A program made the position numbers and the translations under genes. DNA of 64,000 nucleotides from an uncultured Psychroserpens sp. Lineage in GTDB: Bacteria > Bacteroidota > Bacteroidia > Flavobacteriales > Flavobacteriaceae. The first letter of the stretch is position 1; every line of letters begins with the position of its first letter. The notes under the pieces are model-generated. The model was not told where the DNA came from and ran no database searches. It saw only the letters and a list, made by a program, of their open reading frames with translations. Shown piece after piece: positions 35,910 through 44,526 of this stretch. The stretch spans positions 186,001-250,000 of the forward strand of contig NZ_CANMRL010000005.1 of the NCBI RefSeq assembly GCF_947500255.1. Reading direction: 5' to 3'.

Positions 35910-36725
35910 ATGGAAAAATTACCAAAAGTTGCACTACCAGTTATGTTTGGTATTGTGGTGCTTATCATACTTTTTGCAAAATCTGCAGTCACAATCGATT
36001 CAGGAGAAGGTGGTGTATTATACAAACAATTTTCTGGAGGTGTTGACTTAGAAAACACTTATGGTGAAGGGTTTCACATTGTAGCACCTTGGAATAGTAT
36101 GATTAAATATGAAGTAAGAGATCAGTCTGTGCAAGAACAATTACCTGCATTACTGTCTGTTGATGGTTTACCTATTGAAGTGGATTTGACTATTCAATAC
36201 AAACCTAATTATTCAAATCTAGGTCGACTACATCAAACTGTAGGTGTTGATTACTACATCAGAAAAGTTAAGCCAGCTATAAATTCTGTTGCAAGAAGTA
36301 TTATTGGTCAGTATACTGCAGAAGAACTGTATTCGTCTAAAAAGAATTCTATTCAAAATGAAATTCAAGAACAGACCAAAAAGGATTTATCTGCTGTTTA
36401 TATAGATTTACTTCAAGTCCTTGTTGAGAAAATAGAATTACCAGAAAAGATTACGGCAGCAATTGAAGATAAAAAAACGAAAGAACAAGAATTGGAAAAG
36501 TATAAATACCTATTGCAAACTGCTGAAAAAGAAGCCGAAAGACAACGTGTTGAAGCCGATGGAAAAGCGATTGCCAATAAAATCTTAAGTGCTTCTCTAA
36601 CTGATAAAATATTACAAGAAAAAGGTATTGAAGCGACATTAAAACTCTCCGAATCGCCTAATAGTAAAGTTATTGTAATTGGTTCTGGAGATTCTGGGAT
36701 GCCTATAATTTTAGGAAATCAATAA
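35910..36725 (+). CDS. SPFH/prohibitin-domain protein
   Basis: This 271-residue protein has one N-terminal membrane helix (about residues 8-28), then a prohibitin-type SPFH domain (YKQFSGGVDLENTYGEGFHIVAPW, about residues 40-200). A charged coiled coil (IEDKKTKEQELEKYKYLL...EAERQRVEADGKAIA) and a small C-terminal segment follow. Such proteins form ring or cage assemblies in membranes and often work with membrane proteases. It is encoded between the VWA protein and an SH3-like protein with minimal spacing. No protease partner is adjacent. Confidence 0.88.
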   Translation: MEKLPKVALPVMFGIVVLIILFAKSAVTIDSGEGGVLYKQFSGGVDLENTYGEGFHIVAPWNSMIKYEVRDQSVQEQLPALLSVDGLPIEVDLTIQYKPNYSNLGRLHQTVGVDYYIRKVKPAINSVARSIIGQYTAEELYSSKKNSIQNEIQEQTKKDLSAVYIDLLQVLVEKIELPEKITAAIEDKKTKEQELEKYKYLLQTAEKEAERQRVEADGKAIANKILSASLTDKILQEKGIEATLKLSESPNSKVIVIGSGDSGMPIILGNQ

Positions 36726-37268
36726 ATGAAAACGATTATCATCTCTTTATTATGTTGCTTGAGTTTCCTAATTCATGGTGACAACAACTTACTATCAAAT
36801 AGTTATGTAGAATGCTATTATGATAAAGAGGTGAAACGACCAATATTAGTATATGATAGTATCAATGGAAAGATTGTTGACTCACTTTATAATATTGATG
36901 ATAAATACGCATGGTATAAATTAACCATTTTAGAGAGTGAGTATGGCTGGTTTAAAATTAAAAAGATTTCACGTTTGCCGTCTTCTCATATAGATTATAA
37001 TTATGAGAATTATTGGGTAAAGAATATTGGTTTTTTAATTAATGCAGATAATTATAGTGATAAACATCATGTGTATTTATACGATTTACCATCAGTAACA
37101 TCTAATAAGATTCACAGGTTAGATAACTTTCAAAAAGTAAATGTGATTGAAGTTGATGACCTATGGGCAAAAGTAAAATTTACCGTTGGTAAAAAGCAAA
37201 TCGAGGGTTGGTTAGGATATAACGACCAATGTGGATTGCCATGGACAACATGCCCAAAATCGGATTAG
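36726..37268 (+). CDS. Exported SH3-like protein
   Basis: The 180-residue protein has an N-terminal signal peptide (IIISLLCCLSFLIHG). Two short beta-rich regions with the spacing of bacterial SH3 domains follow: one near residues 30-75 (WYKLTILESEYGWFKI) and one near 115-165 (DLPSVTSNKIHRL, LWAKVKFTVGKKQIEGWLGY). The second has the W-x-K-V...G-W pattern. These domains often bind peptidoglycan or peptides. It begins directly after the SPFH stop. Function is otherwise unknown. Confidence 0.65.
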   Translation: MKTIIISLLCCLSFLIHGDNNLLSNSYVECYYDKEVKRPILVYDSINGKIVDSLYNIDDKYAWYKLTILESEYGWFKIKKISRLPSSHIDYNYENYWVKNIGFLINADNYSDKHHVYLYDLPSVTSNKIHRLDNFQKVNVIEVDDLWAKVKFTVGKKQIEGWLGYNDQCGLPWTTCPKSD

Positions 37269-37349
37269 TATTAAATAAATCATAATAATTAAAAAAGGAT
37301 TTGGAATTGTAGATAAAAATTTGCAACCTTTGTTCAAACAAAACAACAA

Positions 37350-37406
37350 ATGACTTTTATTCAACTACATCATCATCATTTTCACTCTAGCACTCAAGCG
37401 AGCTGA
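37350..37406 (+). CDS. hisL: Histidine operon leader peptide
   Basis: An ATG at 37350 opens an 18-residue peptide, MTFIQLHHHHFHSSTQAS, ending in TGA at 37404-37406. Five of seven consecutive codons (37368-37385) are His. The gene lies 123 bases upstream of hisG and in front of a terminator hairpin. A ribosome stalled at the His codons would leave 37392-37400 free to form the antiterminator. The peptide has no other recognisable feature and is the sensor of an attenuation control. Confidence 0.88.
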   Translation: MTFIQLHHHHFHSSTQAS

Positions 37407-37449
37407 AGATGTATTGAATAAAATCAACATATTTAAAAACCGTTTGAGT
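37392..37449 (+). promoter_or_regulatory. Predicted antiterminator stem of the his attenuator
   Basis: ACTCAAGCG (37392-37400) can pair with CGTTTGAGT (37441-37449): nine base pairs with one G-U wobble. The distal arm overlaps the 5' arm of the terminator (37435-37447), so the two structures exclude each other. The proximal arm lies inside the end of the leader peptide frame, where a ribosome reaching the stop codon would cover it. An upstream pairing of TACATC (37366-37371) with GATGTA (37408-37413) may act as the pause stem. Confidence 0.7.
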
Positions 37450-37468
37450 AAGTCAAACGGTTTTTTTT
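37435..37468 (+). terminator. Attenuator terminator in front of hisG
   Basis: AAAAACCGTTTGA (37435-37447) and TCAAACGGTTTTT (37453-37465) form a perfect 13-bp stem with a five-base loop, followed by T residues to 37468. It lies between the His-rich leader peptide and hisG. Confidence 0.9.
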
Positions 37469-37528
37469 ATTTCCATAATTTAAATTACCAAAAGCGATTT
37501 ACTCAAACTGAAACATTAAAATCAAAAA

Positions 37529-38386
37529 ATGAGTAAATTAAAAATTGCAGTACAAAAATCAGGTAGACTTCACGACGATTCTATGAAGCTATTGAAAGAC
37601 GTTGGAATCTCTATTGATAATGGAAAAGACCAACTCAAGGCATCTGCCAAGAATTTCCCTTTGGAAGTTTTTTATTTAAGAAATGGTGATATACCTCAAT
37701 ATTTAAAAGATGGTGTAGTAGATGCAGCAATCATAGGAGAAAATGTTTTAGTAGAAAAAGGCAATGGTATTTCGATTTTAGAAAAACTTGGGTTCTCATC
37801 ATGTAAAGTGTCTATAGCTATCCCGAAGTCTAAAAACTATAACTCAATTAAAGATCTTGAAGGCAAGCGCATTGCAACATCGTATCCAAATACGGTGAAC
37901 CTGTTCTTAGAACGAAATAATGTCAATGCCAACTTACACATTATTAACGGTTCTGTTGAAATTGCTCCAAATATTGGATTGGCAGATGCAATTGTTGATA
38001 TTGTCTCTAGTGGAAGTACATTGTTTAAAAACGGACTAAAAGAAGCAGAAATCCTATTGAAATCTGAAGCTGTACTTGCAGTTTCACCTTTAATTACCTC
38101 GGAAAATGAGAGTACTTTAAATAAACTTCGGTTTCGCTTACAATCAGTTCTAAAAGGAAGACAGAGTAAATATGTATTGCTTAACGCACCTAATGATAAG
38201 TTAGAAGCTATTGTCAATATTTTACCTGGTATGAATAGTCCAACTATTTTGCCGTTAGCAAAAGAGGGATGGAGCTCTCTACACTCAGTGATTAATAAAA
38301 ATGAATTTTGGGAAATTATTGATGAACTTAAGCAGAATGGTGCAGAAGGAATTTTAGTGTGTCCAATCGAAAATATGGTACTGTAA
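37529..38386 (+). CDS. hisG: ATP phosphoribosyltransferase (long form)
   Basis: This 285-residue HisG joins ATP with PRPP in the first committed step of histidine synthesis. It is the long form with a C-terminal ACT-like regulatory domain (about residues 210-285), so no HisZ partner is needed and allosteric inhibition by histidine is expected. The catalytic part starts KIAVQKSGRLHDDSM, with the PRPP-binding DAIVDIVSSGSTLFKNGL near residue 155. The stop overlaps the hisD ATG by one base (TAATG). It is the first structural gene after the attenuator. Confidence 0.95.
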   Translation: MSKLKIAVQKSGRLHDDSMKLLKDVGISIDNGKDQLKASAKNFPLEVFYLRNGDIPQYLKDGVVDAAIIGENVLVEKGNGISILEKLGFSSCKVSIAIPKSKNYNSIKDLEGKRIATSYPNTVNLFLERNNVNANLHIINGSVEIAPNIGLADAIVDIVSSGSTLFKNGLKEAEILLKSEAVLAVSPLITSENESTLNKLRFRLQSVLKGRQSKYVLLNAPNDKLEAIVNILPGMNSPTILPLAKEGWSSLHSVINKNEFWEIIDELKQNGAEGILVCPIENMVL

Positions 38387-39672
38387 TGAAAACGATAATA
38401 AACCCAAAACGATCAGATTGGTCTAGTATTTTAAAGCGACCAACACAAACTGTAGAGACTATTGAAAATACGGTTAATGAGATATTTAATGATGTACAAC
38501 GTAATGGTGATAAGGCTATTTCTAAATACACAGAATTATTTGATGGTGCAAAATTTGAGTCGGCAATTGTATCTAAAAAAGAAATAGAAGGGGCTTCTGA
38601 GTTCATTTCTGAAGACTTAAAAGCTGCTATAAAAACAGCAAAGCTTAACATAGAGATTTTTCATAAAGCTCAAAAAACAGAACGCATTACTGTAGAAACC
38701 AGTCAAGGTATAAATTGTTGGCAAGAAAAGCGCCCAATTCAAAAAGTTGGATTATATATTCCAGGAGGAACTGCTCCTTTGTTTTCTACAGTTTTGATGC
38801 TAGCTGTTCCAGCTCAAATTGCTGGGTGTAATGATGTTGTATTGTGTTCACCACCAAATAGTAAAGGAAAAATTGCTAATGAAATTTTATATACCGCTCA
38901 GTTATGTGGTGTTACCAAGATCATTAAAGTTGGTGGTATACAGGCTATTGCTGGATTAACATTTGGCACAGAACACATTCCACAGGTTTATAAGATCTTC
39001 GGTCCTGGAAATCAATTCGTGACAGTAGCGAAACAATTAGCAACAAAATATGGTGTTGCTATTGATATGCCTGCTGGTCCAAGTGAATTGTTAGTGGTCG
39101 CAGATGATACTGCAAAAGCAAATTATGTGGCCTCAGATTTATTGAGTCAAGCCGAACATGGTGCAGATAGCCAAGTGATTTTAGTATCTACATCTAAAGG
39201 GTTTATTAACGAGGTTAAATTTGAGATAGAGCAACAGATGCTAAAGCTTCCTCGTAGAGATATGGCACAAAAAGCTATCGATAATTCTAAACTAATATAT
39301 GTTGAAACTCATGAAGTAGCTTTGGATGTTATCAATGAATATGCACCAGAACACTTTATCATATGTACATCTAATGAGGATTTTTATATTGATAATATTT
39401 CTAATGCTGGCTCTGTATTTATTGGAAATTATACGCCAGAAAGCGCAGGTGATTATGCTTCTGGAACTAACCATACGTTGCCTACAAATGGATTTAGTAA
39501 AGCGTATTCTGGTGTCAACCTAGACAGTTTTACCAAGAGTATTACATTTCAGAAGATATCAAAAGAAGGGATTCTAAACATTGGAAAAACTATCGAACTA
39601 ATGGCAGAAGCTGAAGGCTTACAAGCACATAAGAATGCCGTAACATTACGATTAAAAGATTTGAAAGAATGA
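38386..39672 (+). CDS. hisD: Histidinol dehydrogenase
   Basis: This 428-residue enzyme performs the last two steps, L-histidinol to L-histidine, with NAD and zinc. Signatures include GGTAPLFSTVLMLAVPAQIAG, FGPGNQFVTVAKQ, DMPAGPSELLVVAD and the zinc/base His residues in SQAEHGADSQV and YAPEHFI. I start at the ATG at 38386 (MKTIINPKRSD), which overlaps the hisG stop and gives the usual family length. A longer in-frame start inside hisG adds nine residues without homology. It overlaps hisC by four bases. Confidence 0.95.
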   Translation: MKTIINPKRSDWSSILKRPTQTVETIENTVNEIFNDVQRNGDKAISKYTELFDGAKFESAIVSKKEIEGASEFISEDLKAAIKTAKLNIEIFHKAQKTERITVETSQGINCWQEKRPIQKVGLYIPGGTAPLFSTVLMLAVPAQIAGCNDVVLCSPPNSKGKIANEILYTAQLCGVTKIIKVGGIQAIAGLTFGTEHIPQVYKIFGPGNQFVTVAKQLATKYGVAIDMPAGPSELLVVADDTAKANYVASDLLSQAEHGADSQVILVSTSKGFINEVKFEIEQQMLKLPRRDMAQKAIDNSKLIYVETHEVALDVINEYAPEHFIICTSNEDFYIDNISNAGSVFIGNYTPESAGDYASGTNHTLPTNGFSKAYSGVNLDSFTKSITFQKISKEGILNIGKTIELMAEAEGLQAHKNAVTLRLKDLKE

Positions 39673-40703
39673 AAATAACTAGCTTAATTAGAAATAATAT
39701 TAAATCCTTGAAACCTTATTCGTCTGCTCGAGATGAATTTAAGGAACTGTCTAGTGATTTCGTATTTATTGACGCTAATGAAAACCCATTTGAAAATGGT
39801 GTTAATCGATATCCTGACCCGCAACAATCGCTAGTTAAAACGCATCTTTCTGATATAAAAAAGATACCTGTAGAAAATATATTGTTAGGAAATGGTAGCG
39901 ATGAAGTTTTAGACTTAATTTTTAGAGTGTTTTGTGAGCCAAACAAGGACAATATAATTACATTGCCACCAACGTATGGAATGTATGAAGTGCTAGCTCA
40001 GACCAATGCAATTGAAGTACAAAAAATTGAGTTAGATCATAACTTTCAGCCTAGAACTAAAGACATTTTAGATGTAGTAAATCCCTTTACAAAGCTACTG
40101 TTTTTATGCTCTCCAAATAATCCTACGGCTAATAGTTTTGAATCTAAAACCATAGAACAGTTATTACATAATTTTAATGGTATTGTAGTTATTGACGAGG
40201 CGTACATCGATTTTTCTAATACCGAAAGTTGGTTGAGTCGTTTAGATGAGTTTCCAAATTTAATTGTGACACAAACACTCTCTAAAGCCTACGGTATGGC
40301 AGGCATTCGATTGGGTGTTTGTTATGCTTCCGTCGAAATTATATCTGTGCTAAATAGAATAAAACCACCATATAATATCAATGAACTTACTCAACGAAAA
40401 GCTTTAGAGCGATTGTCAGATTATAAATTGGTTTTTGCCGAAATTCAAAAAATCCTAGAACAGCGCAAGTGGTTAAGAACCGAACTAGAAATGATAGCAT
40501 TCGTAGATACTATTTATCCATCTGATGCCAATTTCTTATTGGTAAAAGTTGATAATGCAACTATGCGATACAACCAACTAATAGAAAAGGGAATAGTTGT
40601 AAGAAATAGAACCAATGAGCCAGGTTGTACCAATTGTCTAAGATTTTCAGTGGGTACACAAATGGAAAATATAAAACTAATTAAAGAACTGAACACATTA
40701 TAA
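39669..40703 (+). CDS. hisC: Histidinol-phosphate aminotransferase
   Basis: This 344-residue fold-type I PLP enzyme transfers an amino group from glutamate to imidazole acetol phosphate. It has [19 protein letters not shown], the [14 protein letters not shown] cofactor-phosphate segment, [19 protein letters not shown] and the PLP Lys in [16 protein letters not shown]. It is linked by an ATGA overlap to hisD and a one-base overlap to hisB. Length is that of normal HisC. Confidence 0.95.
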
Positions 40704-41836
40704 TGAAACGCGTATTATTTATAGATCGAGATGGAACCATTATTAAAGAACCAGCAGATGAACAGATTGATTCATTTGAAAAGTTAGAGTTCTATCCTAA
40801 AGTATTTCAATATCTAAGTAAGATTGCGAACGAGTTAGACTTTGAAATTGTTATGATTACCAATCAAGATGGTTTGGGTACAGATGTATATCCTGAGAAC
40901 ACCTTTTGGCCAGTACATAACTTTATTTTAAAAACCTTTGAAGCTGAAGGTGTCATATTTAAAGAGCAATATATCGATCGAACATTCGCAAAAGATAATG
41001 CTCCAACACGAAAGCCTAATACAGGTTTATTGACCAAGTATTTTTCTACGGAATACGATTTGGATAACTCTTTTGTTATTGGTGACCGCTTAACAGATAT
41101 CGAATTAGCTAAGAACCTAGGATCAAAAGGTATTTTTATTAATGATGACACCAATCTTGGAACTGATGAAATTACTGTTAAACGAGAAGCCTTAAATAAA
41201 TTCATTGCTTTGGAAAGTAATGATTGGGAAAGGATTTACACTTTTTTAAAAGCTGATGCTAGAACTAAAAGTATTGAGCGAAACACCAATGAAACAGAGA
41301 TTAAAATAGATTTAAACCTTGATGGAACTGGTCAAAGTGACATTGATACTGGAATTGCTTTTTTTGATCATATGCTAGATCAAATTGCGCGTCACGGACA
41401 ATTAAACCTAACGATTAAAGTTGATGGTGATTTAGAGGTCGATGAGCACCACACAATTGAAGATACTGCCATTGCTCTAGGTGAAGTATTTGCAATTACC
41501 TTAGGCAATAAGCTTGGTATTGAACGCTACGGATTTTCATTGCCTATGGATGATTGTTTTGCGCAGGCCGCTATAGACTTTGGTGGACGGAACTGGTTGG
41601 TTTGGGAGGCTGAATTCAAACGCGAAATGATAGGAAAAATGCCAACAGAAATGTTCTATCACTTTTTTAAATCGTTTACAGATGGTGCCAAATGCAACTT
41701 GAATATAAAGGCTGAAGGCACGAATGAACATCATAAGATTGAGGCGATTTTCAAGGCTTTTGCAAAAGCTATCAAAATGGCCGTTAAACGCGATGTAGAA
41801 AAAATGATATTGCCATCAACAAAAGGTCTTTTGTAA
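40703..41836 (+). CDS. hisB: Bifunctional histidinol-phosphatase / imidazoleglycerol-phosphate dehydratase
   Basis: This 377-residue two-domain enzyme has an N-terminal HAD-type phosphatase (residues 1-165) with the nucleophile loop [12 protein letters not shown] and [15 protein letters not shown]. The C-terminal dehydratase (about 180-377) holds the metal-binding [29 protein letters not shown] and [17 protein letters not shown] segments. The fused form resembles the enteric HisB. It catalyses steps 6 and 8 of the pathway. It overlaps both hisC and hisH by one base. Confidence 0.95.
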
Positions 41837-42417
41837 TGAGTGTAGTTATTGTAGATTATGGCGCAGGAAATATAAAAAGTATACAGTTTGCTTTTAAACG
41901 TTTAGGAGTTGAGGCTAAACTTTCTAATGATCCAGCTATCATAAAGGCAGCAGATCGAGTGATCTTTCCTGGAGTAGGAGAAGCAAGCTCTGCAATGAAA
42001 ATGCTTAAGCAAACTGGTTTGGATGATGTCATACCAAAATTAAAGCAGCCAGTACTTGGAATCTGCTTAGGAATGCAGCTTATGTGTAATGGTTCTGAAG
42101 AAGGAGATACTGAAGGACTAGGGATTTTCAATGCTGAAGTTAAGCGTTTTTCTAATAAAGTGAAAGTGCCTCAGATGGGGTGGAATACCATTACTAATTT
42201 AAAATCTGAATTATTCAATGGTATAAAAGAGAATGAATTCATGTACCTTGTGCATAGTTATTATGCAGAGCAATGTGAAGAAAGTATCGCCTCTACCTAT
42301 TATGAATTTAGTTATGCCTCTGCATTACAAAAAGAGAATTTTTATGGTGTTCAATTTCACCCTGAAAAGAGTAGTACAGCAGGAGAACAATTATTAAAAA
42401 ACTTTTTAGAATTATGA
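41836..42417 (+). CDS. hisH: Imidazole glycerol phosphate synthase, glutaminase subunit
   Basis: This 193-residue class I glutamine amidotransferase supplies ammonia to HisF. It shows [17 protein letters not shown] at the start, the nucleophile Cys in [10 protein letters not shown] near residue 78 and the His-Glu pair in [10 protein letters not shown] near residue 173. It works with HisF, encoded two genes downstream. Overlap with hisA is ATGA. Length is normal. Confidence 0.95.
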
Positions 42418-43130
42418 GAATTATACCAGCAATAGATATCATAGATGGCAAATGTGTACGTCTTACTAAAGGTGATTATGATACTAAAAAAGTATATAAT
42501 GAGAACCCTGTTGAAGTGGCTAAAGAATTTGAATCTTATGGGATTCAATATTTGCATTTAGTAGACTTAGATGGTGCTAAGGCCAAGCATATTGTAAACT
42601 ATAAAATTTTAGAACAAATTGCTTCAAAAACCAATTTAAAGATTGATTTTGGAGGAGGTTTAAAGTCTAATGAGGATTTACACATTGCTTTTAATTCTGG
42701 TGCTAGACAGGTTACAGGTGGAAGTATTGCTGTTAAAGACCCTACAACCTTTGAAGGTTGGCTTAATACCTATGGTGGAATAAAAATTATGCTTGGAGCC
42801 GATTGTAATAATGAAAAAATTGCTGTGAGTGGCTGGCAAGAAGAAAGCGATATGAATGTGATTCCTTTTATTAAAGCTTATGAAAGCAAAGGTGTAAAGT
42901 ATGTCATCTGTACAGATATAGCTAAAGATGGAATGCTTGAAGGTCCGTCATTTGATCTTTATAAACGCATACTTAACGAAACAAAAGAGGTTAGGTTGAT
43001 AGCCTCTGGAGGTGTGACATCAATTGATGATTTAAACGCCTTGGAAGATTTAGGCTGTGAAGGCGCCATCATAGGAAAAGCTATTTATGAAGGCCATATT
43101 TTATTAAGAGACTTAGAAACACACTTATAG
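42414..43130 (+). CDS. hisA: ProFAR isomerase
   Basis: This 238-residue TIM-barrel enzyme isomerises the aminoaldose ProFAR to the aminoketose PRFAR. The first catalytic Asp is in [19 protein letters not shown] and the second in [15 protein letters not shown] near residue 168. Phosphate is bound by DFGGGLKS and [11 protein letters not shown]. It is closely related to the adjacent HisF, as expected for these duplicated barrels. It starts inside the hisH stop and ends one base before hisF. Confidence 0.95.
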
Positions 43131-43131
43131 T

Positions 43132-43887
43132 ATGCTAACAAAACGAATTATTCCTTGTTTAGATATCAAAAACGGTAGGACAGTTAAAGGTGTCAATTTT
43201 GTGGACTTGCGTGATGCTGGCGACCCTGTTGAGTTGGCAAAGCAATATGCAAACCTTGGAGCAGATGAATTGGTGTTTTTAGATATTTCGGCCACATTAG
43301 AAAGAAGGAAAACTATGCACGATATGGTATTGAAAGTTGCAGAGCAGGTTAATATTCCATTTACGGTAGGAGGCGGGATTTCTTCTATTGAAGATGTTGA
43401 TGATTTACTGCACTGTGGAGCAGATAAGATCTCTATAAATTCGAGTGCTGTAAAACGTCCAGAATTAATTAACGAGTTATCTCGAAAGTTTGGTAGCCAA
43501 TGTGTGGTAGTAGCAATTGATGCGAAGCAAATAGAAGATAAATGGATGGTGCATTTAGCTGGAGGCACTATTCCTACTGATCTCAATTTGTTTGATTGGG
43601 CTAAAGAGGTTGAACTGCGAGGTGCTGGAGAAATTTTATTTACATCAATGAATAACGATGGTACTAAAGCCGGTTTTGCAAATGATGCCTTAGCCAAGCT
43701 TTCTGAAATTGTAAATATTCCAATTATTGCATCTGGAGGTGCTGGGTCTACACAACATTTTATTGATGCTTTTGAAAATGGAAATGCCGATGCTGCTTTG
43801 GCTGCTAGTGTATTTCACTTTGGTGAAATAGATATTTTAGATTTAAAAAGAGAATTGAAGAATAACAATATTGAAGTGCGGCTATGA
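43132..43887 (+). CDS. hisF: Imidazole glycerol phosphate synthase, cyclase subunit
   Basis: This 251-residue TIM-barrel enzyme cyclises PRFAR with ammonia from HisH to IGP and AICAR. The catalytic Asp residues are in [18 protein letters not shown] and [14 protein letters not shown]. Phosphate-binding glycines are in [13 protein letters not shown] and [11 protein letters not shown]. It follows hisA by one base. A 42-base gap with a small hairpin separates it from hisIE. Confidence 0.96.
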
Positions 43888-43893
43888 GTCGCT

Positions 43894-43914
43894 ATGTTGA
43901 ACTAATTTCAACAT
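43894..43914 (+). other. Hairpin between hisF and hisIE
   Basis: ATGTTGAA (43894-43901) pairs with TTCAACAT (43907-43914) around a five-base loop, directly after the hisF stop. There is no T run, so it is unlikely to terminate. It might mark a processing or stability site. Confidence 0.35.
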
Positions 43915-43929
43915 CTATAATAAACAACA

Positions 43930-44526
43930 ATGAATATAGATTATAATAAAAACAACGGACTCGTACCTGCAATAATACAAGATGCTGCAACAAACAAAGT
44001 GTTGATGTTAGGATACATGAATGATGAAGCTTTAAAGAAAACATTAGAGACGAAACAGGTGACTTTTTTTAGTAGAACCAAACAACGTTTGTGGACTAAA
44101 GGAGAAGAGAGTGGAAATGTGCTTAGTCTGGTTGATGTCAAATTGGATTGTGATAATGATACGCTATTAATCAAGGTAAAACCTAAAGGTCCGACATGCC
44201 ATAAAGGTTCAGATACGTGCTGGAATGAAGATAATACTCAAGACTTTGGATTTCTTTCAGAATTAGAAACGGTTATAGAAAGCAGAAAACATAATGCACA
44301 AGAGGATACGTCTTATGTAGCGTCTTTATTTTCTAAAGGGATTAATAAAATAGCACAGAAAGTGGGAGAGGAGGCCGTAGAAACGGTTATTGAAGCCAAA
44401 GACTCTAATGATGAGTTGTTTTTAAATGAAAGTGCAGATTTGTTATTTCATTACTTGATCCTTTTACAAGCTAAAGGTTTTAAATTGAATGATATTGTTA
44501 ATATCCTTAAGAATAGAAAAAAATAA
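43930..44526 (+). CDS. hisIE: Bifunctional PR-AMP cyclohydrolase / PR-ATP pyrophosphatase
   Basis: This 198-residue fusion carries out steps 2 and 3 of the pathway. The N-terminal cyclohydrolase (residues 1-105) has MLGYMNDEALKKTL, LWTKGEESGN and metal-binding Cys residues in LDCDNDTLL and GPTCHKGSDTCW. The C-terminal pyrophosphatase (about 110-198) has KVGEEAVETVIEAK with the metal-binding Glu residues. It is the last gene of the operon. Confidence 0.95.
   Translation: MNIDYNKNNGLVPAIIQDAATNKVLMLGYMNDEALKKTLETKQVTFFSRTKQRLWTKGEESGNVLSLVDVKLDCDNDTLLIKVKPKGPTCHKGSDTCWNEDNTQDFGFLSELETVIESRKHNAQEDTSYVASLFSKGINKIAQKVGEEAVETVIEAKDSNDELFLNESADLLFHYLILLQAKGFKLNDIVNILKNRKK

Follow-up and report, generated by a model that had tools for sequence, protein, structure and literature searches.

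A putative his attenuator of a Psychroserpens species and a covarying element between its terminator and hisG

The his operon in a 64,000-nucleotide stretch of DNA from an uncultured Psychroserpens sp. (the window, whose positions are used throughout) very probably lies behind a ribosome-mediated transcription attenuator, to which is added a genuine further pairing between the 5′ arm of the terminator and an element transcribed after it. Classical his attenuation is a known kind of control, and control by leader peptides is already known in Bacteroidota; the covarying helix formed by the post-terminator element is what is added here. Comparison among relatives shows that this pairing of element and terminator arm is selected. 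The conservation and covariation of the parts can be read directly from alignments, and from them we infer that read-through into hisG responds to histidine. The features are collected in Table 1.

The first-pass annotation of the window described an 18-residue leader peptide with five His codons upstream of hisG, a his operon behind it, a perfect 13-bp terminator with a T-run and, inside the 5′ arm of that terminator, a stretch able to pair over nine positions with the end of the leader. These claims bear up. Direct reading of the leader ORF gives 18 residues and five His codons, base for base as described, with 122 nt between the ORF and hisG. NCBIfam names all eight products of the operon, from hisG to hisIE. 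The terminator is present as claimed, and the helix of ACTCAAGCG with CGTTTGAGT consists of nine pairs, eight Watson-Crick and one G-U. The geometry proposed for ribosome stalling also holds with a ribosome footprint of the usual size: the antiterminator arm ends 3 nt before the leader stop codon, a ribosome at that codon would cover the arm, and one stalled on the first four His codons would leave it free.

Table 1. Coordinates of the leader region and of the his operon in the window
Feature	Position	Strand	Details
Candidate promoter of Bacteroidota type, TTTG-N21-AACCTTTG	37300-37332	+	TTTG 37300-37303; 21-bp spacer; AACCTTTG 37325-37332
His leader peptide ORF MTFIQLHHHHFHSSTQAS	37350-37406	+	ATG 37350-37352; TGA 37404-37406; conserved
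Leader stem, 5′ arm	37351-37371	+	5′ half of leader ORF; predicted to pair with 37408-37426
Putative regulatory His codons, CAT x4, TTT, CAC	37368-37385	+	CAT x4 37368-37379; CAC 37383-37385
Antiterminator arm ACTCAAGCG	37392-37400	+	predicted to pair with CGTTTGAGT at 37441-37449
Leader stem, 3′ arm	37408-37426	+	stretch past the stop codon; from the minimum-free-energy fold
Intrinsic terminator	37435-37468	+	13-bp stem, 5-nt loop, T-run; AAAAACCGTTTGA-GTAAG-TCAAACGGTTTTT 37435-37465, T-run to 37468
Partner of the element, GTTTGAGTAAGTC	37442-37454	+	upper 5′ arm of the terminator plus loop; 13-nt complementarity
Post-terminator element (DSE) GATTTACTCAAAC	37496-37508	+	ends 20 nt before the hisG ATG
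hisG, ATP phosphoribosyltransferase	37529-38386	+	first gene of the operon; NCBIfam TIGR00070, TIGR03455
hisG start region TGAGTAAATT	37530-37539	+	can pair with 37496-37505, covering part of the start codon; predicted in the fold to hisG+40
hisD, hisC, hisB (bifunctional), hisH, hisA, hisF, hisIE	38389-44526	+	NCBIfam over cut-off for all seven; ORF spacing

The promoter consensus of Bacteroidota is TTTG-N(18-23)-TANNTTTG, and the candidate promoter matches nine of its ten specified positions. Promoter scores of at least 9 are found in 115 of 178 leader-bearing relatives and in 18 of 178 shuffles. Transcription from this candidate would begin ∼10–15 nt 5′ of the leader ATG. The hisG product shares 98% identity with its Psychroserpens luteolus counterpart, which places the genome in Psychroserpens or near it. 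Immediately 5′ of the leader, 36726-37268 encodes a 180-residue protein with no match in NCBIfam; in many of the relatives aligned, this place is taken by the end of the gene that corresponds to window gene 35910-36725.

When His-tRNA is short, a ribosome would stall on the CAT run and leave the antiterminator arm free; the freed arm would capture the 5′ arm of the terminator, and RNA polymerase would read into hisG. With His-tRNA in good supply, the ribosome would reach the stop codon and cover the antiterminator arm, and the terminator would form. A leader that carries no ribosome would fold on itself, again with formation of the terminator. In read-through mRNA, the terminator 5′ arm plus loop could pair instead with the post-terminator element. 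This element is transcribed after the termination decision and hence can act on read-through mRNA only.

Conservation of the leader was assessed by a simple criterion, a short ORF upstream of hisG with at least three His within seven residues, in samples of increasing breadth. The close relatives are the best 80 hisG loci of a longer contig match list, some of whose records are common to other samples. The family sample drew on 120 genomes, 103 with hisG, of which three had already been sampled, leaving 100 loci; the class sample drew on 149 genomes, 66 with hisG including the source genome, leaving 65 loci. A His leader precedes hisG in all 80 of the best close relatives listed, in 98 of the 100 family loci and in 58 of the 65 class loci. 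On the opposite strand, the same criterion finds 0/80, 2/100 and 7/65, respectively, and dinucleotide shuffles contain three or more such His in 4–7% of cases. Leaders with at least four His are present in 73 of the best 80 close relatives listed, 71 of the 100 family loci and 50 of the 65 class loci, compared with at most 0.5% of shuffles.

An order-wide sample found hisG in 61 of 98 genomes, and 44 upstream regions were analysed; of the other 17 loci, six had already been sampled and 11 were left out, ten of them from 0.6-Mb genomes of a single group (f76). A His leader is present in 40 of the 44 regions, 39 by script and one (L304) by eye. The four loci with no His leader (L322, L332, L333 and L334) belong to genomes of ∼0.6 Mb that keep hisG, and they look as if the switch had been lost with a reduced lifestyle. 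The putative His-leader switch is thus widespread in the class of the source organism. The first-pass annotation had named two observations that would speak against its reading, loss of the His run in relatives and loss of the alternative pairings; the run is conserved near hisG in the close, family and class samples, and the pairings covary, modestly so for the antiterminator.

A script found the terminator in 80 of 81 close regions (the best 80 listed and the window). In an alignment of 62 sequences, 95.3% of the cells of the terminator helix are paired and 29 are double-change cells, a measure that counts sequences and not evolutionary events. The antiterminator was examined in 66 leaders, nearly all from the family, that were aligned without regard to structure. 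Its helix is paired in 88.2% of cells with 28 double changes; sliding the arm by one to three columns leaves at most 46.5% paired and at most seven double-change cells, and shuffled controls have a mean of 86.3% paired and 12.8 double-change cells. Seventeen of the 28 double-change cells stem from the pair at the outer end of the helix, and 33 of the 66 leaders have that pair open, so the covariation of the antiterminator is real but modest. The leader peptide ends in QA[S/R/N/K] (37395-37403) in most close relatives; the simplest account is that this end is kept because of the RNA arm encoded there, rather than for the peptide.

The minimum-free-energy fold of the leader is dominated by a long stem that the first-pass annotation did not describe, in which the 5′ half of the leader ORF pairs with the stretch past its stop codon. 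This stem is paired in 62.4% of cells, against 35–45% in slid controls; its 104 double-change cells are close to the 102 of one slid control, so it is partly supported. The antiterminator arm sits in the loop of the leader stem and not within the stem itself. The leader folds 6.6 standard deviations below dinucleotide shuffles (z-score −6.6). In equilibrium models the antiterminator stays at or below 0.001, also with a stalled ribosome masked, and is thus never favoured. The antiterminator would therefore have to win kinetically, by timing, which is how attenuator antiterminators usually win.

The post-terminator element, absent from the first-pass annotation, was first seen as a second conserved block 3′ of the terminator in the alignment of relatives. 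It is complementary to the upper terminator 5′ arm plus loop over 13 nt, with one G-U pair. Allowing Y at position 3, the 13-mer matches the 4.0-Mb source genome exactly only at this site and, on the other strand, at its partner. The distance from the end of the element to the hisG ATG has a median of 16 nt and lies between 13 and 20 nt in 94 of 127 loci. In 81 close regions (the best 80 listed and the window), elements paired with their own loop reach a mean duplex score of 25.1, compared with 17.3 for the loops of other species and 12.9 for shuffled regions.

Covariation of the element helix was measured in 62 sequences, picked for having the element at the usual distance and aligned with MAFFT. 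In this element-selected set, 92.8% of the helix cells are paired and 78 are double-change cells; the covariation score is 0.404. Slid controls reach at most 23 double-change cells and a covariation of at most 0.105, and shuffled controls 23.0 cells; the terminator itself scores 0.200. Independence of events was addressed with a hisG tree of 106 distinct sequences, from which 18 pairs with differing loops could be drawn on non-overlapping paths. In these phylogenetically independent pairs, own pairing was compared with crossed pairing and won in 13, lost in 2 and tied in 3 (p 0.007). For a binary sister test of loop type against element type, the pairs were too few for a decision.

The element was also scored by a shuffle test in unselected loci with leader and terminator, where it is present in 63 of the best 80 close relatives listed, 57 of 98 family loci and 6 of 57 class loci. 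In the order-wide sample, it is present in 13 of 13 loci of one group (f2), 3 of 6 of a second (f67) and 7 of 12 of the window's own family. In group f75, both of the leader-bearing loci read by script have it, and in L304 of the same group His leader, terminator and element are all present by eye. The single locus of f65 (L305) carries the element with wholly different letters. No element is found in f69 (0/3), and the single loci of f64 and f74 narrowly fail (p 0.025 and 0.03). The predicted element recurs, then, in several families of the order and is not found in most other Bacteroidia loci. Its presence differs by loop: 46 of 46 loci with GTAAA have it, against 4 of 20 with a tetraloop of GNRA type (GCAA or GAAA). 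For roughly one in four of the best 80 close relatives listed, the best match lies at least 29 nt from the start codon, and a small hairpin is often inserted in between. Such a hairpin, of the CCCGCTTTCTCGGG type, sits between element and hisG in L010, L029, L033, L041 and L061 and lengthens the spacing by ∼20–30 nt.

Folding models describe how the competing helices may share the read-through RNA. In stepwise folding of the window, a transcript ending at the T-run forms the terminator at 96%, one ending just past the element forms the element helix over the terminator at 98–99%, and one that includes hisG again favours the terminator at 95–96%, because the element then pairs with the hisG start region TGAGTAAATT. 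At the end of the element, element helix and terminator stand at 0.49 and 0.49 in 61 GUA-loop loci, 0.50 and 0.47 in 27 GAC-loop loci, and 0.27 and 0.67 in 39 loci with other loops (127 loci). With hisG included, enforcing the element helix costs a mean of 4.1 kcal/mol across 120 sequences, and the helix is part of the minimum-energy fold of six.

What the element does on read-through mRNA can be explained in several ways. One account holds that, where the terminator has folded and the polymerase has escaped it, the free element would cover the hisG start codon and silence the leaky mRNA; where the leader arm holds the 5′ arm, the element would capture the latter through a toehold in the loop, and the start codon would stay open. 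The two pairings of the element are indeed mutually exclusive, the window's element pairs with the start region when the terminator is folded, terminator and element helix are near balance ahead of hisG in GUA- and GAC-loop loci, and of 48 GTAAA-loop loci, 46 show significant pairing with the start codon. Yet none of 21 GACAA-loop loci does, although these keep the element. In the 22 of 127 loci whose hisG starts with letters other than ATGAGT or ATGAGC, the element scores 9.7 with the start it actually precedes and 12.5 with the common one, so it does not follow the variant starts. Start-codon pairing modelled with the element helix or the terminator enforced (0.73 and 0.67 for GUA loops, 0.71 and 0.85 for GAC loops, 0.64 and 0.64 for others) shifts in no consistent direction across the 127 loci. 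We regard this account, a bolder form of translational gating, as doubtful. Covering of the start codon is rejected as the only reason why the element exists, as GACAA-loop loci lack it and changes in the hisG start are not matched by it. Without acting directly on translation, the element might form an RNA structure behind the polymerase that pauses or shields it where hisG begins, or one that keeps the mRNA from being degraded; transcription just ahead of hisG at a spacing of mostly 13–20 nt would suit this. The spacing is kept relative to the start codon, which neither pausing nor decay needs, and such a role is unlikely.

Several other explanations concern the element or the hairpin. The complementarity could be an inherited accident with no function, as the failure to detect the element in 41 of 98 family loci might suggest; covariation beyond the slid and shuffled controls, the outcome of the 18 independent pairs and recurrence in other families with different letters make this improbable. 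The element could also be the target of terminated leader RNA acting in trans, as it is complementary to the terminator loop and the trp leader RNA of Sinorhizobium reportedly acts in trans. The trp leader peptide of that organism acts in trans as well (PMC7298713). For the element, a partner identical to the one in trans is present in cis only 41 nt off and would win the competition, and no further exact copy of the 13-mer occurs in the genome, which renders this reading highly improbable. It is barely credible that the hairpin serves only to end transcription of the gene upstream and that the His peptide arose by accident: a gene does end at 37268, but leader and antiterminator are conserved while the end of the upstream gene varies among relatives. 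The two copies were also considered as half-sites of a DNA-binding protein, and this candidate was rejected because from one relative to another the copies change in step and lie at irregular distances.

The reading preferred here starts from timing and place. The element is made too late to affect termination and lies near the hisG start, so it most likely makes translation of hisG, or stability of the mRNA, depend on the earlier state of the 5′ arm. A role at the level of translation, such as gating of hisG translation, is plausible if a little short of probable; translational gating is held likeliest on position alone, as folding gave no consistent support. If the element is functional, control by this leader-peptide attenuator would extend to the translation of its first gene. 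Members of the Bacteroidetes are described as naturally lacking Shine-Dalgarno sequences, and in F. johnsoniae structure around the start codon tunes initiation (both PMC6847099). A wider proposal, put forward tentatively, is that the terminator 5′ arm plus loop is contested by the leader arm, the terminator 3′ arm and the element, and that this contest would control both read-through and hisG translation with neither a protein nor a small-molecule ligand; the arrangement would be ancestral to much of the order and repeatedly lost, notably at GNRA tetraloops.

Covariance models of known leaders were searched for matches up to an E value of 1 in window positions 36000-40000, and neither the Rfam His_leader (RF00514) nor the T-box model has one there. 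Across 99 Bacteroidia genomes, none has a His_leader match over the cut-off and 16 have weaker matches; in another set, of 16 sources, the best score is 33.1 bits (L239) against a cut-off of 49. Among 14 control genomes two match (E. coli and C. glutamicum), one of them over the cut-off. The his attenuator of E. coli and Salmonella (RF00514) shares with the present leader a His-rich leader peptide, an intrinsic terminator, a competing antiterminator and a his operon, whereas the present leader escapes the Rfam model and carries the post-terminator element. We know of no such element in the enteric his attenuator. The trp leader of B. subtilis is governed by the RNA-binding protein TRAP, which exerts termination control and, in the read-through mRNA, translational control. 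The present proposal likewise joins termination control to a second, translational control in read-through mRNA, but the agent is a protein there and would be a stalled ribosome here, and the structures differ.

Vitreschak and colleagues are said to have predicted attenuators in Bacteroidetes/Chlorobi in 2004. A report of 2010 states that no such attenuator was known outside Proteobacteria and Actinobacteria, its own Firmicutes finding excepted (PMC2965389). Firmicutes his attenuators also combine terminator and antiterminator, with leader peptides of three to five consecutive His codons; they belong to another phylum, and the sections describing them mention no post-terminator pairing (PMC9413887). 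A survey of his genes across the superphylum in 2021 has no occurrence of "leader" in its main text and names attenuation once, for enterics (PMC8305728). Within the family of the source organism, transcriptome data of Flavobacterium psychrophilum gave strong indications of attenuation by leader peptides upstream of amino-acid operons, in statements that name neither an operon nor a post-terminator element (PMC9723704). Short ORFs reminiscent of such leaders are mentioned in Bacteroides thetaiotaomicron (PMC7366714). Among the matches listed in a literature search, no title or abstract opening mentions a his leader in Flavobacteriaceae, or an element placed after the terminator of any amino-acid leader, and subscription literature lies mostly outside this set.

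A classical attenuator conserved at 58 of the 65 Bacteroidia hisG loci sampled would imply that ribosomes initiate early on the leader mRNA and keep pace with RNA polymerase. The coupling of transcription and translation in the phylum thereby becomes directly testable through a conserved his attenuator.

The Bacteroid-trp leader (RF01692), listed in PMC2864571, is likewise a leader-peptide attenuator in Bacteroidota, but with Trp codons in place of His. The source genome has such a leader, with a WWW run and a terminator at L248:766-899 (contig C4), a trpE-like (chorismate-binding) gene at L248:901 and an RF01692 score of 64.2 bits. There the terminator directly precedes the first gene, which leaves no room for a downstream element. 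As a negative control, 18 hairpins with T-rich ends in 30 ilvD upstream regions of the family were searched, and no element follows any of them (all p at least 0.145); this control scans longer stretches and so has less power. The data do not bear out the element as a general trait of flavobacterial attenuators, since the search of ilvD leaders did not find it and the trp terminator lies directly against its gene.

Other amino-acid genes of these genomes offer further observations. In the source genome, inspection by eye of ∼190 nt upstream of thrA finds neither a leader with a Thr/Ile run nor a terminator. The nearly complete source genome has no match to ilvD (PF00920), as is the case for 8 of 40 family genomes searched, and the source organism is possibly a branched-chain amino-acid auxotroph. 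In the family genomes with ilvD (L254-L283), Ile/Val-rich short ORFs precede most of the ilvD hairpins, for example in L255, L269, L277, L279 and L280.
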